Of a stretch of DNA of 36,401 nt, positions 30,337 through 35,834 are shown piece by piece. Origin of the DNA: a virus. The notes beneath the pieces are model-generated. The model was not told the DNA's origin and searched no databases. It was given only the letters and a program-made list of their open reading frames with translations. The stretch is taken from IMG/VR virus record IMGVR_UViG_3300010885_014407, positions 1-36,401 of that record; one strand, written 5' to 3'. Position 1 is the first letter of the stretch. The number at the start of each line of letters is the position of its first letter. The position numbers were made by a program, and so were the translations under genes.

Positions 30337-30476
30337 ACCGGATTTGAGTTCATTATAATGTGGTATCAGGATACCGCAAAAAAAGGGAAAAATCGTTGGG
30401 GTTAAATCTTGCATTCAATGAAATTTTCCAAAGTGTTATGTTATAACATTACATATTGAAATTAATCGGTGAAGAA
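30337..30476. promoter_or_regulatory. Non-coding region before terminase with two palindromes
   Basis: 140 bases without a gene. Contents: TATAAT (30354-30359) without a matching -35; GGTATC-AG-GATACC (30362-30375); a run of seven A; and ATGTTATAACAT (30438-30449), the core of a 20-base dyad (30434-30453) with nine of ten pairs. The last overlaps a possible -10 (TATAAC) and ends 24 bases before the terS start. Candidate late-promoter or operator site; a packaging (pac) site could also lie here or in terS. Confidence 0.45.
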
Positions 30477-30956
30477 ATGGCTAAAAAAAAGGCAGGCAGA
30501 CCACCGCATCAGGCTAATGGTGCTACAAAGAAAGCCGTAGAAATTATGGCTGCTGCTGGCTTATGGAATTACCAAATAGCCAAACAAATGAAGATAGATG
30601 AAGATACTCTGGTTAAGTATTATTCTCATGAACTGGCAACGGGCTGGTCTACAACAATGGCCGCTGCTGCCAACGTGGTTGTGACTGAAATGCTTTCCAA
30701 TACTGATAAATCACTGGATGCTGCGAAGTTCTTCTTAAAAAGCCGTGGCAAAGGATTGTGGTCTGAAACCAAGCAGGTGGAAGTAACTGGCAAGGGCGGC
30801 GGTCCTATCCAAACTGAGTCAATCAACATAGATGCATTGGACTATGACGAGCAGGAGCAGCTTGAGAGTATGCTGACAGCGGTATTGGCATTACCATCAT
30901 CTAATGATGAAGTTGAAGATGCTGACTTTGTTGAAATAGATGATCACAATGCTTGA
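30477..30956 (+). CDS. terS: Terminase small subunit
   Basis: 159 aa from ATG 30477 (an in-frame TTG upstream lies in the palindromic leader). The basic start AKKKAGRPPHQANGATKKAVEIMAAAGLWNYQIAKQMKIDEDTLVKYYSHEL is a helix-turn-helix that would recognise the packaging site. A helical oligomerisation part follows (AAAANVVVTEMLSNTDKSLDAAKFFLKSRGKGLW), then a flexible acidic tail. Its last 17 bases overlap the large subunit, as is usual. Confidence 0.8.
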   Translation: MAKKKAGRPPHQANGATKKAVEIMAAAGLWNYQIAKQMKIDEDTLVKYYSHELATGWSTTMAAAANVVVTEMLSNTDKSLDAAKFFLKSRGKGLWSETKQVEVTGKGGGPIQTESINIDALDYDEQEQLESMLTAVLALPSSNDEVEDADFVEIDDHNA

Positions 30957-32658
30957 TATGCCAATTACAAAAAAGCACATGCTTAACCGCGCACAAGCGG
31001 AAGCATTGCGTTTCAATCTTAATAAGAAACGTTTACAGCGCAATCTATACGACTTTGCAGCAGAGGCTTGGTCAGTGATTGATCCTGCTGAGTTCGTCGG
31101 TGGTGGCTTTGCTATGCAGGCTGTATGCGATCATCTACAGGCTTGCGCTGATGGTCACATACGCAATTTGATTATCAACATTCCACCACGCTTTTCTAAA
31201 TCTACGTTGGTTGGTACGTTGTTCCCGGCTTGGTGCTGGGCGCAAGACGAACTATCGCCAACGTCTGGCAATGGTGTGCAGTTTCTGTTTGCTTCATATA
31301 GTCAGTCGCTATCATTGCAAGACAGTTTGAAATGCAGACGCTTGGTTGAAAGCGATTGGTATCAGTCACGCTGGGGCGATAAGGTGCAGCTACAAGCCGA
31401 TCAAAACACCAAGAGCCAGTTCGATCTAATATCTGGCGGCAGGCGGCAAACCACGTCGGTTGGCGGCTCCACGACTGGTATGGGTGGAACGTATCTAATA
31501 GCGGACGATCCTAATAATAGCCGTGAAGCCAATTCGGAAGCCATTATCTACAGCACCAATGAGTGGTGGGATCAGGCTTGGTCTACCCGTCTGAACGATA
31601 GCAAACGAGGCTGTCGTATTGTGATTCAGCAGCGCCTTAATTCACGGGACATCACTGGGCATATCTTGACGAAAGACGTAGGTTCATGGACGCACCTGAT
31701 GCTGCCAATGCGGTTTGAGCCTGAGCGTCGCATTTATACGGTTCTTGTGCCAGCCGCAGCCAATGATGGTGTAAATGATGTGGTGTGGACTGATCCACGG
31801 GAAACGGAAGGCGAATTACTTTGGCCGGAACGGTTTGGCGAGGAAGAAGTTAACCTTTTAGAAAAAGACCTTGGACCTTATGGTGCGGCTGGTCAGTTAC
31901 AGCAACGACCTGCGCCTGCTGGCGGCGGCATTATCAAACGGACTTGGTGGCAACCTTGGTCTGCTACTGCGTTCCCAGATATGGAAATCAACATAGGCAG
32001 TTTGGACTTGGCGTATACGACCAAGAAGGAGAACGACTTCAGCGCCATGACGTGTTGGGGGGTGTGGCAAGACGGTGGCGAATCAACGGCTATTGTCAAT
32101 CGGGATCATCAGGGCAATGTGGTGTCGCGCATCCAGAAGAGCACGCAAGGCGGTGAAGTGCCAAAGATCATGATGACCAATGCTTGGAAAGCGCGACTGG
32201 AGTTCCATGAATTGGTTGATAAAATCATCAAGACGGCACGGGAAAGCAAGATTGACATCCTGCTGGTGGAAGCCAAGGGACCGGGCATATCGGTAGCGCA
32301 GGAAATCAGGCGTTTGGTTGGCATTGAAGAGTTTAGCGTCAGAGAAGTTAATCCACTGGATTTGGATAAGACAGCGCGTTTATATGCAGTGCAACATCTG
32401 TTTGCTGAAGGATTGGTTTACGCACCAACCAAGGTAGGTGACCCTGACTTATTTAGAATATGGGCAGACATGGTTGTCACTGAAGTGGAGGAGTTTCCCA
32501 AAGGCGTTCATGATGACTTGGTTGACACTGTTTCACAGGCAATCACGTTTATGCGTAAGACTGGCATGATTAGCCGTGGCGTTGAACGGACGTTTGAATT
32601 AACAGAAAGTCAAAAATTCGTTGGGAATAATTCAAATATGCCATTGTATCCAGTTTAA
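30940..32658 (+). CDS. terL: Terminase large subunit (ATPase-nuclease)
   Basis: A 572-aa packaging motor. ATPase: Walker A variant PPRFSKS (82-88), Walker B YLIADD (185-190). Nuclease (RNase H-like): Asp356 in GSLDLAY, Asp366, Glu444 in LLVEAKGPG and Asp525-Asp526 in VHDDLVD. These fit podovirus terminases that package by headful or concatemer cutting. Start ambiguous: ATG at 30940, 30949 or 30958, none with a strong site; 30940 gives overlap with terS. Portal and coat genes would usually follow, but here a modification module does. Confidence 0.92.
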   Translation: MITMLDMPITKKHMLNRAQAEALRFNLNKKRLQRNLYDFAAEAWSVIDPAEFVGGGFAMQAVCDHLQACADGHIRNLIINIPPRFSKSTLVGTLFPAWCWAQDELSPTSGNGVQFLFASYSQSLSLQDSLKCRRLVESDWYQSRWGDKVQLQADQNTKSQFDLISGGRRQTTSVGGSTTGMGGTYLIADDPNNSREANSEAIIYSTNEWWDQAWSTRLNDSKRGCRIVIQQRLNSRDITGHILTKDVGSWTHLMLPMRFEPERRIYTVLVPAAANDGVNDVVWTDPRETEGELLWPERFGEEEVNLLEKDLGPYGAAGQLQQRPAPAGGGIIKRTWWQPWSATAFPDMEINIGSLDLAYTTKKENDFSAMTCWGVWQDGGESTAIVNRDHQGNVVSRIQKSTQGGEVPKIMMTNAWKARLEFHELVDKIIKTARESKIDILLVEAKGPGISVAQEIRRLVGIEEFSVREVNPLDLDKTARLYAVQHLFAEGLVYAPTKVGDPDLFRIWADMVVTEVEEFPKGVHDDLVDTVSQAITFMRKTGMISRGVERTFELTESQKFVGNNSNMPLYPV

Positions 32659-32678
32659 TTAAAATTTAATTATAATGA

Positions 32679-33359
32679 ATGATACATTATCACGGTGCAG
32701 ATATTAATCCAATTGCGGCATTATATGAAATGGCTGGACGCCATTTTTGTGTTTCATTTTTATATCAATCTCATGTTGCAAGGGTGCATTCTATTGGACA
32801 AAGTGTAATGCTTGACAATGGGGCATTTACTGCTTGGCGCAAAGGCACAAATATTGATTGGAATAAATATTATGCATGGGTTGATAAGTGGTTAGATTGC
32901 CCAACAACATGGGCAGTTATACCAGATGTTGTTGAAGGTGGACCGGAACAACAAGATGAATTAATAGCAAAATGGCCGCATGGTCAAAAAGGCGCACCTG
33001 TTTGGCATATGCATGAACCAATTGATCGGCTGGTTCAATTAACTGAGTTTTGGCCTAAAGTATGCGTTGGTTCATCAGCCGAATATAGTTCTGTTCTATC
33101 TGATTCATGGTGTCATCGGATGGATGTGGCATGGAATGCTATTTCAAAAAAGCATAAAAGATTACCTTGGATTCATATGCTGAGAGGAATGGCCTGCTCT
33201 GGCAAGCGTTGGCCGTTTTCTAGTGTTGACAGCACTGATATTGCGAGGAACCACCACCTTCCCCACAAAAACCCAAGGGGTATGGCAACTAAATGGGATG
33301 GGCAACAATGCCCATTTACATGGGCAATTCAACCTGAACAAATGGAGTTATTGAAATGA
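32679..33359 (+). CDS. dpdA: DpdA-like DNA 7-deazaguanine transglycosylase
   Basis: A 226-aa protein with the TIM-barrel pattern of tRNA-guanine transglycosylases and their DNA-acting DpdA relatives. Motifs: MIHYHG start; Asp46 in LDNGAF (like the TGT Asp in DSGGF); Asp83 in IPDVVEGG; PVWHMHE (106-113); VCVGSSAEY (128-136); HMLRGM (166-171); Asp184/Asp187 in SVDSTD, where TGT has its nucleophile-bearing DxxxPTR strand. By family knowledge it would swap guanine in DNA for preQ0 or a relative. It lacks a TGT zinc site and is shorter than TGT (about 375 aa). It overlaps the next gene (ATGA), a precursor transporter, strongly supporting the reading. No good ribosome site precedes the ATG. Confidence 0.75.
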   Translation: MIHYHGADINPIAALYEMAGRHFCVSFLYQSHVARVHSIGQSVMLDNGAFTAWRKGTNIDWNKYYAWVDKWLDCPTTWAVIPDVVEGGPEQQDELIAKWPHGQKGAPVWHMHEPIDRLVQLTEFWPKVCVGSSAEYSSVLSDSWCHRMDVAWNAISKKHKRLPWIHMLRGMACSGKRWPFSSVDSTDIARNHHLPHKNPRGMATKWDGQQCPFTWAIQPEQMELLK

Positions 33360-33904
33360 AATGGATATTGCTTATTGCGTATGCTGCGTGTGTCCCATTT
33401 GCTAATTGGATGATTAGTAATGTGGGAGAATGCATTCCAAATGGCCCATGTTTATTGCCAATGGGATTTGGCTTGTCGGCTCCGTCAGGTGTTCTTATTA
33501 TTGGCGCAGCTTTAATGTTGCGAGATGCCATTCAAATGGTTGCCGGGTGGCGTTGGGGATTAATTGCAATTGGTATTGGTGCAGTTATTTCATATTTGTT
33601 TGCTTCGCCATTTATTGTTGTGGCAAGTGTAATATCTTTTGTGTTGTCTGAACTGGCAGATTTTGCTGTTTATACGCCATTAGCAAAAAAACGTCTTACT
33701 TTGGCTTTGGTTGCATCTGGAATTGTTGGAGCAATCATTGATAGCGCAGCGTTTCTTTTGATTGCTTTTGGCTCAATAGATTACATTGGCGGACAAATTA
33801 TTGGTAAAATTTATGCGGTAATTTTTGCATCGGTTGCTATACCATTAATAAGAAAAATGTTATTAAATGGGAATAACTTTAAAATTCCATTGCATCTAGT
33901 TTGA
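33356..33904 (+). CDS. VUT/YhhQ-family queuosine (7-deazaguanine) precursor transporter
   Basis: A 182-aa membrane protein with about five or six helices (around 3-20, 44-54, 66-82, 85-99, 116-134 and 153-166). Family features: LMLRDAIQ (Arg56, Asp57), ISYLFASPFIVVASVISFVLSELADFAVYTPL (Ser98-Glu99-Leu, Asp102, Tyr106), Asp129 in IIDSAAFLLIAFGS and GQIIGKIYA. This is the VUT family whose E. coli member YhhQ imports preQ0/preQ1. Shorter than YhhQ (about 221). It starts in ATGA with dpdA, so both are made together in the inner membrane and cytoplasm of the infected cell, respectively. Role in phage DNA modification is inferred from this pairing. Confidence 0.82.
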   Translation: MKWILLIAYAACVPFANWMISNVGECIPNGPCLLPMGFGLSAPSGVLIIGAALMLRDAIQMVAGWRWGLIAIGIGAVISYLFASPFIVVASVISFVLSELADFAVYTPLAKKRLTLALVASGIVGAIIDSAAFLLIAFGSIDYIGGQIIGKIYAVIFASVAIPLIRKMLLNGNNFKIPLHLV

Positions 33905-33942
33905 TGGTTAGTTAAATTGAAATTGTTAAAGGAGAAATAACA

Positions 33943-34319: not shown

Positions 34320-34562
34320 ATGGACATTGTTGATGAAGTAAAAGCGATCTTTGATGATAAAAACGGCATCATCGAACAGCTTAGGAAAGATATTCACAGC
34401 CTAAAGATTGCCAATAGGGATTTGCTGGATTGGTACGATTCATCGCGGGAGGACGCGGCGCGTTTGCGGGAAGCGTTGAAAGAAATACTGACACATGAAA
34501 CAGATTATGAACCTTACGATTGTATTGAAATTGCCCGCGCCGCACTGAAGGAGGGTGAGTGA
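34320..34562 (+). CDS. Coiled-coil early protein, MDIV/AALK paralogue 1
   Basis: An 80-aa helical protein: MDIVDEVKAIFDD, a coiled coil (IIEQLRKDIHSLKIANRDLLDWYDSSREDAARLREALKEIL) and the C-terminal IARAALKEGE. The N-terminus and C-terminal AALK motif recur in the proteins at 35364 and 35606. AAGGAG is six bases from ATG. The layout (Ead/Ea22-like coiled coil with ARxAL end) is common in phage accessory regions. Role unknown. Confidence 0.55.
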   Translation: MDIVDEVKAIFDDKNGIIEQLRKDIHSLKIANRDLLDWYDSSREDAARLREALKEILTHETDYEPYDCIEIARAALKEGE

Positions 34563-34786
34563 TGAAGGGAACACCAGAGATTAGCCCGGTTATTTGGCTG
34601 GAACAAAAAGTTCAAGAACAAGACAACGAGATTAGAAAGCTGGAGTCTGATCTTCTGGCGGCAGAAATGCGGGAACAATTTTACGCTAAAACATTAGCAC
34701 ATTATGTTAAACGAATTAAGGAATTGGAAGACAATGCCAAAAGAAAAGAAAATGACGGAAGAACAGAAGCGTCTGTTGAAGATTGA
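34562..34786 (+). CDS. Small coiled-coil protein
   Basis: 74 aa from ATG 34562, overlapping the previous stop (TGATG) and seven bases after GGAGG. A nearly continuous helix with heptad-like charge (EQKVQEQDNEIRKLESDLLAAEMREQ, HYVKRIKELEDNAKRKEN). No known family. Confidence 0.5.
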   Translation: MKGTPEISPVIWLEQKVQEQDNEIRKLESDLLAAEMREQFYAKTLAHYVKRIKELEDNAKRKENDGRTEASVED

Positions 34787-35364: not shown

Positions 35365-35606
35365 TGGATATTGTTGAACGGTTGCGAGAGTTTGTAGGGC
35401 AATACCTCGGCGATGCGGATTTGGACGACGAATTGACCGAAGCCGCCGATGAGATTGTGCAGATGCGAGAAGACATGGTGGAAATAATGTGGTTGCTAAC
35501 GCGAGGCCCGAACCGCACACGAGATATTATGGCTATCATAAATCCGTGGATACTTAAACACGCTACGTACCTTAACGCCCGCGCCGCATTGAAAGAGAGT
35601 GAGTGA
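35364..35606 (+). CDS. MDIV/AALK paralogue 2
   Basis: 80 aa from ATG 35364, overlapping the previous stop. MDIVERLREFVGQYL, an acidic helical body and a C-terminal NARAALKESE. Similar to the proteins at 34320 and 35606 at both ends. Same role unknown. Confidence 0.5.
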   Translation: MDIVERLREFVGQYLGDADLDDELTEAADEIVQMREDMVEIMWLLTRGPNRTRDIMAIINPWILKHATYLNARAALKESE

Positions 35607-35827
35607 TGGATATTGTTGAGCGGTTAGATGAGCATTTGCGGTTTAATGGCAAAGACCAGTTATCGCGTGATGCAAAAAATTATATTGAGCAGTTGCGGGA
35701 GGCGTTAAACGCGGACAATCAAACAATCCGTCTGCATCTTGGTGAAATGACACAGCAAGAAATGAGAACGGTAAAAGCAGCGTTTGCATGGGTTCTTTCC
35801 CGCGCCGCATTGAAAAATGGTAAGTGA
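35606..35827 (+). CDS. MDIV/AALK paralogue 3
   Basis: 73 aa from ATG 35606, overlapping the previous stop. MDIVERLDEHLRF, a helix (RDAKNYIEQLREALNADNQTIRL) and C-terminal LSRAALKNGK. Its first seven codons match those of paralogue 2 almost exactly, and the end codes CCCGCGCCGCA as in the other two copies. Helical; role unknown. Confidence 0.5.
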   Translation: MDIVERLDEHLRFNGKDQLSRDAKNYIEQLREALNADNQTIRLHLGEMTQQEMRTVKAAFAWVLSRAALKNGK

Positions 35828-35834
35828 CGCACTG

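Follow-up and report, generated by a model that had tools for sequence, protein, structure and literature searches.

A phage gene pair of a DpdA-like enzyme and a YhhQ-type transporter as a probable salvage-type 7-deazaguanine cassette

Introduction

Directly behind the large terminase gene of a virus record in IMG/VR (IMGVR_UViG_3300010885_014407), two short overlapping genes raise the question of how a phage whose record shows no genes for making a 7-deazaguanine base might still place one in DNA. The window, meaning the whole stretch of 36,401 nucleotides that was analysed (positions 1 to 36,401 of the record), had been interpreted in a first-pass annotation as containing a compact DNA-modification module of a transglycosylase and a precursor transporter. 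Both halves were known before, and uptake of the base was suggested in 2019 (PMC6884629). The same survey found YhhQ homologues in some phages with no correlation to any group (Hutinet et al. 2019, PMC6884629), and it left the modification status open for the largest group of DpdA-bearing phages, which has no preQ0-synthesis genes (PMC6884629).

Layout of the locus

The first reading frame, of 226 amino acids, starts 20 bases past the terL stop and shares a 4-base overlap (ATGA) with the second, of 182 amino acids (Table 1). The two overlapping genes described after terL in the first-pass annotation were thus confirmed, and the motifs quoted from the enzyme (LDNGAF, IPDVVEGG, HMLRGM and SVDSTD) were all found in the 226-aa protein; the wording "fused" has to be dropped, as the genes overlap translationally and form no fusion. 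Compared with three relatives, dN/dS was 0.035–0.062 for the dpdA-like gene and 0.07–0.13 for the yhhQ-like gene, which indicates purifying selection, strong on the first and somewhat weaker on the second, so that both look like functional genes. Neither a preQ1 riboswitch or other RNA family nor a tRNA gene was found in the window, and promoter-like sites around terL and dpdA were not above chance.

Table 1. Coordinates of the locus and of related features (positions in the window unless a locus is named)
Feature	Position	Strand	Evidence
terS-like gene (small terminase), context, precedes terL	30456–30956	+	PHROG 309, 2.7e-9
terL (large terminase), upstream neighbour; insertion neighbourhood, outside the module	30940–32658	+	PHROG 38, 1.9e-76
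38-nt imperfect direct repeat, copy 1, 3' tail of terL	32622–32659	+	Repeat search, 79%
dpdA-like gene, 226 aa, predicted TGT/DpdA-superfamily base-exchange enzyme	32679–33359	+	PHROG 887, 9g DpdA profile, MED16 identity, AlphaFold, conservation
Mobile unit, 1170 bp	32680–33849	+	Common to L007/L045 (93%) and L048/L049 (84%) in different surroundings; identical blastn boundaries in both comparisons
yhhQ/QPTR-like gene, 182 aa, six predicted helices, putative importer of a 7-deazaguanine base (preQ0 or preQ1)	33356–33904	+	Vut_1, TIGR00697 below cut-off, YhhQ profile, AlphaFold
38-nt repeat, copy 2, last yhhQ codons (GNNFKIPLHLV*)	33868–33905	+	Repeat search and shuffle test
32-nt junction sequence GCCCGCGCCGCACTGAAGGAGGGTGAGTGATG	34533–34564, 35577–35608, 35798–35829		
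PHROG 15826 examples	L041:4515–5126, L053:2557–3153, L108:4431–5066 and others		

The enzyme

The 226-aa protein falls into PHROG 887, annotated as queuine tRNA-ribosyltransferase (E 1.7e-49), and has homologues covering 80% or more of its sequence in 100 phage records. A profile of its family, built from 128 relatives, matched the DpdA of phage 9g over 156 columns (hhalign, 99.2%, E 1.2e-19), which points to a homologous barrel in a Nonagvirus with a complete dG+ pathway; unlike the window, 9g carries its own precursor synthesis genes, and its DpdA is longer (317 aa versus 226 aa). The Pfam and NCBIfam models gave no match to the window enzyme, no Pfam family, including TGT (PF01702), was matched in 24 members, and when the family profile was compared with one made from 30 bacterial TGTs, the two did not match. 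Because that profile match is absent, the case for TGT kinship is made by way of 9g DpdA and of the HHpred match of MED16 DpdA to the TGT of Thermotoga maritima published by the MED16 authors (PMC8306585). On these sequence comparisons, the assignment of the window protein as DpdA/TGT-like is well supported.

The AlphaFold model of the enzyme (pLDDT 82.7, pTM 0.83) retrieved generic TIM barrels from the solved structures in Foldseek, none below E 0.001, with no TGT among the best 50. The best matches among viral models include phage proteins named queuine tRNA-ribosyltransferases (E about 1e-7, TM 0.66). A sequence search of solved structures gave nothing beyond chance matches to polynucleotide kinase.

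H5, D46, D83, H110, H166, D184 and S185 vary little or not at all among the 128 relatives, D46 lying within DNGAF and D83 within IPDV. The pairs D46/D72, H166/H196 and D184/D215 are aligned between the window enzyme and 9g DpdA. D187, the second aspartate of SVDSTD, is Asn in most family members, and D184 is therefore the better candidate and the likely nucleophile; judged from its position, it probably corresponds to D264 of E. coli TGT. D46, at the position of E. coli TGT D89, would then be the general acid/base. The zinc motif CXCXXC...H occurs in none of the 128 members, whereas the same strict pattern was found in 17 of 30 bacterial TGTs, and the earlier statement that the TGT zinc site is missing stands. 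DpdA2 (nt-1 type) is reported to lack a histidine at 9g position 196 and to be missed by a 9g DpdA query (PMC6884629); since H166 aligns with H196 of 9g and the match to 9g DpdA is strong, the window enzyme is not a DpdA2. Nor does the protein appear to be a short and perhaps minimal subtype, as had been proposed: 226 aa is usual in this family (median aligned length 225), and short DpdAs have been published from phages MED16, SEN1 and SW9.

The transporter

The second protein scores 35.2 bits (E 2e-8) with Pfam Vut_1 (PF02592), above the cut-off of 27.2. The NCBIfam model for queuosine precursor transporters, TIGR00697, reached 30.3 bits (3.4e-7), below its cut-off of 50.95, so the protein is filed in the Vut_1 family and not as a TIGR00697 equivalog. 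E. coli YhhQ matched the profile of the phage transporters at 94.6% (E 6.9e-8). The AlphaFold model (pLDDT 85.2) has six long helices; its top TM-scores among solved structures, 0.52–0.54, were to ECF S-components, that for biotin among them, with E-values that were not significant. E. coli YhhQ/QPTR (COG1738, PF02592) and the window transporter have the Vut_1 family, the six helices and conserved positions in common. They differ in that the phage protein, of 182 aa, belongs to a distinct phage subfamily, PHROG 4899, for which no function is annotated, and stays below the TIGR00697 cut-off. Kinship to YhhQ/QPTR is well supported by these matches. E. coli YhhQ is a preQ0 transporter (PMC5372724); the most likely substrate of the phage protein would be preQ0.

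Source of the base

Searches of the record, which is linear, of fragment type and may be incomplete, gave no match to the QueC, QueD/PTPS, FolE, QueF or radical-SAM (QueE) families. The first-pass annotation had reported FolE, QueD, QueE, QueC and QueF as missing from the window, and this was borne out across the whole record, possibly a fragment. With no synthesis genes in the record, the phage would depend on an imported or host-made base, and the presence of a YhhQ-type transporter supports the earlier proposal of import instead of synthesis.

The hosts point in the same direction. Across 46 bacterial genomes carrying loci of the PHROG 887-type enzyme (family I), several of which are MAGs, a transporter lies beside the enzyme in 6 of 8 hosts without QueC and in 9 of 38 with it (Fisher p = 0.01, uncorrected for kinship). 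Within the Alphaproteobacteria, the figures are 5/5 without and 7/21 with QueC (p = 0.012). A kinship-corrected comparison of independent pairs went in the same direction with too few pairs to test, and for this reason, and because several hosts are MAGs, the association is treated as suggestive of a transporter that supports import where host synthesis is missing.

In three of the genomes (G006, G028 and G046, behind loci L114, L136 and L188), the sole QueC match is shorter and lower-scoring (E 1e-52 to 1e-55 against TIGR00364). All three have the transporter beside dpdA.

DNA or tRNA as the target

A measured relative is available in Pantoea phage MED16, the DNA of which contains dADG at about 0.13% of G (PMC8306585), with dpdA as the only pathway gene and the preQ0-synthesis genes absent (PMC8306585). 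MED16 DpdA, a phage DpdA of the singleton group without preQ0-synthesis genes (PMC6884629) and of cluster DpdA/TGT_1 (PMC8306585), belongs to the same PHROG 887 family, shares 41% identity with the window enzyme over 197 columns and is of similar size (261 aa versus 226 aa). The catalytic aspartates are common to both, as is the DpdA histidine, and neither is accompanied by synthesis genes. They differ in that the window dpdA is overlapped by a dedicated transporter gene, whereas no yhhQ lies within the 10.6 kb of MED16 examined. The dADG of MED16 supports DNA as the target of the window-enzyme family, and by this kinship DNA rather than tRNA would be the substrate of the window enzyme. A point against comes from Mycobacterium phage Orion, as cited in PMC8306585 from PMC6884629, which has a DpdA, a host without preQ0 synthesis and unmodified DNA.

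The first-pass annotation had linked the modification to blocking of restriction, and for this subfamily that idea is unsupported. As only about 0.13% of G is modified in MED16 and its DNA is still cut by most restriction enzymes tested (PMC8306585), a broad protection by the window cassette seems doubtful. The same data speak for a sparse, site-specific DNA modification that would serve a purpose other than bulk restriction protection, such as marking, regulation or evasion of one specific nuclease. This is a serious candidate, to which we give somewhat less than an even chance; it is compatible with the salvage of an imported base, so that the probabilities assigned to the two overlap. Against it, the level comes from one phage only, in which host precursor supply may have been limiting, and a transporter would raise that supply.

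A phage TGT that modifies tRNA with imported preQ0, preQ1 or queuine, and so tunes translation in the infected cell, would fit the TGT superfamily and the annotation of PHROG 887, the tRNA queuosine salvage served by bacterial QPTR transporters (PMC5372724) and the precursor pool expected from QueC in most host genomes with relatives. We consider it unlikely, since the zinc site is absent and the DpdA-type H166 is present, 44 of the 46 hosts already have a TGT of their own, and the MED16 homologue accompanies dADG in DNA (PMC8306585).

Mobility and the position behind terL

The neighbours of the pair change from phage to phage. The order terL-dpdA-yhhQ of the window recurs in the close relative L008. 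L007/L045 carry the 1170-bp module in a different context with no terL nearby, L048/L049 have no terL match within 3.3 kb upstream of it, and in L047 terL lies downstream with genes between. In named phages, the cassette is located among replication or recombination genes. The cassette is widespread and is traded between phages as a unit. Its pieces also recombine separately, as indicated by L007, in which the dpdA part is 98.8% and the yhhQ part 85.1% identical to the window.

The arrangement in the window carries a mark of its own. The terL tail, GNNSNMPLYPV, resembles the end of the window yhhQ, GNNFKIPLHLV, and the underlying 38-nt repeat is also present in L008; in both, the alignment scores beat all 2000 shuffles. 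The second copy replaces the yhhQ tail IPFIRAALKE of relatives, and yhhQ ends in IPF(I/V)RAALK in L007, L046 and L047. The simplest reading is that the cassette was inserted behind terL with duplication of the terL tail, which remains as an insertion scar.

From the junction to terminase it had been concluded that the genome is modified before or at packaging. This is unsupported because in close relatives terL is not next to the cassette, and the terL-tail repeat marks an insertion; with the gene order of the window and L008 as the only point in its favour, an action of these genes at the packaging step is very improbable.

A further repeated element was seen in this region. The 32-nt sequence GCCCGCGCCGCACTGAAGGAGGGTGAGTGATG occurs three times in the window (Table 1) and also immediately behind yhhQ in L007 (7172) and L047. 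It lies where small genes end and, in relatives, where yhhQ itself ends, and has the look of a recombination seam at which small gene cassettes are shuffled.

Pairing across phages

An IMG/VR scan seeded with the transporter only yielded 65 phage loci, which form 32 clusters at 85% identity. In 61 of the 65 loci and 29 of the 32 clusters, the same strand carries a DpdA-like gene no more than 1.5 kb away. Of the exceptions, L101 and L102 have their DpdA-like neighbour on the opposite strand, L107 is close to the end of its contig, and L105 is the one locus with no DpdA-like gene in reach. The partner across all 57 YhhQ clusters is family I (PHROG 887 type) in 32, family II (PHROG 15826) in 16 and family III (PHROG 1279) in 6, and the pairs occur in both gene orders. 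The profiles of families I and II match at 94.5% (E 7e-8); the match of family I to family III, for which the profile was built from hand-trimmed sequences, is weaker (68.9%). The YhhQ tree, in which many inner branches are weakly supported, implies at least 8 switches of partner family and 15 of arrangement. A long frame in L091, which seemed to connect the PHROG 1279-type family with DNA cytosine methylases, was judged spurious and is not counted as a genuine fusion.

Starting from the enzyme, the picture is different. Family-I genes have an adjacent yhhQ in 6/18 viral and 17/62 genome clusters and lack one in 12/18 and 45/62. As most of them stand without it, the transporter is optional for the enzyme: almost every transporter gene has a DpdA-like gene linked to it, and the enzyme can do without the transporter.

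Named phages illustrate the range of arrangements. Rhizobium phage RHph_N3_2 has the same pairing as the window with overlapping genes, Pseudanabaena phage Pam5 has one gene between the two, and in Rhizobium phage RHph_X2_30 the transporter comes first, whereas the enzyme does so in the window. Sinorhizobium phage phiLM21 and Mycobacterium phage GreaseLightnin (gp54-gp55) have overlapping pairs like the window, but with a family III (PHROG 1279) and a family II (PHROG 15826) partner, respectively.

The linkage in 61 of 65 loci argues that the window pair is a salvage-type 7-deazaguanine cassette. It also upholds the earlier view of a DpdA/TGT-like enzyme and a YhhQ-type transporter as one functional module, and their functional coupling is well supported. 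That the two genes are unrelated morons which met behind terL by chance can practically be dismissed, since DpdA-like genes of three families and in both orders neighbour the transporter in 61/65 loci, even if the terL-tail repeat and the repeated junction sequences tell of small phage cassettes being shuffled in the region.

Several related loci are recorded here in their own right. PHROG 15826 comprises unannotated proteins of about 200 aa with the motifs DNGCF, PDVVGD, HMGRVNS and CDSADGT, distant DpdA homologues that are frequent neighbours of YhhQ, in many metagenomic phages as well as in GreaseLightnin. Locus L009 contains two diverged DpdA-like genes close together on a single viral contig (4547–5236 and 5977–6675); identity to the window protein is 63% for one of them and 47% for the other. 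In L005 (4705–5726, Caulobacter phage DMCA), a DpdA-like gene overlaps one annotated as 6-carboxytetrahydropterin synthase (QueD-type), so that a synthesis enzyme takes the place of the transporter in this alternative pairing.

Proposed mechanism and implications

The window pair is probably a salvage-type cassette: preQ0 would enter through the transporter and replace guanine in DNA by the action of the enzyme, and the host may convert it afterwards. The cassette, which arrived whole and was placed behind terL, would supply a YhhQ/QPTR-like membrane protein through which a free 7-deazaguanine base enters the infected cell, preQ0 being the most likely one. Selected guanines in DNA would then be exchanged for the imported base by the DpdA-like (beta/alpha) barrel in a TGT-type transglycosylation, in which D184 is the likely nucleophile and D46 would act as general acid/base. 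A further conversion of dPreQ0 by enzymes of the host is possible; in MED16, for instance, the product is dADG. The order of these steps and the benefit to the phage are what we infer from the predicted activities.

Whether this extends to a general phage salvage cassette, in which one YhhQ-like importer was repeatedly and independently joined to any of three DpdA-like families, including PHROG 15826 as a previously unrecognised DpdA-like family, and which enables DNA modification in hosts unable to make preQ0, is in our judgement an evenly balanced matter. In the searchable literature, no description was found of one importer family being coupled tightly and repeatedly to three DpdA-like families, with the unannotated PHROG 15826 among them; parts of this may already be in print.

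The linkage gives part of the DpdA phage group without synthesis genes a likely source of precursor, and it suggests a function for PHROG 15826. It also leads to the prediction that modification depends on base from outside and on the transporter of the phage, and that this is clearest in hosts without QueC.
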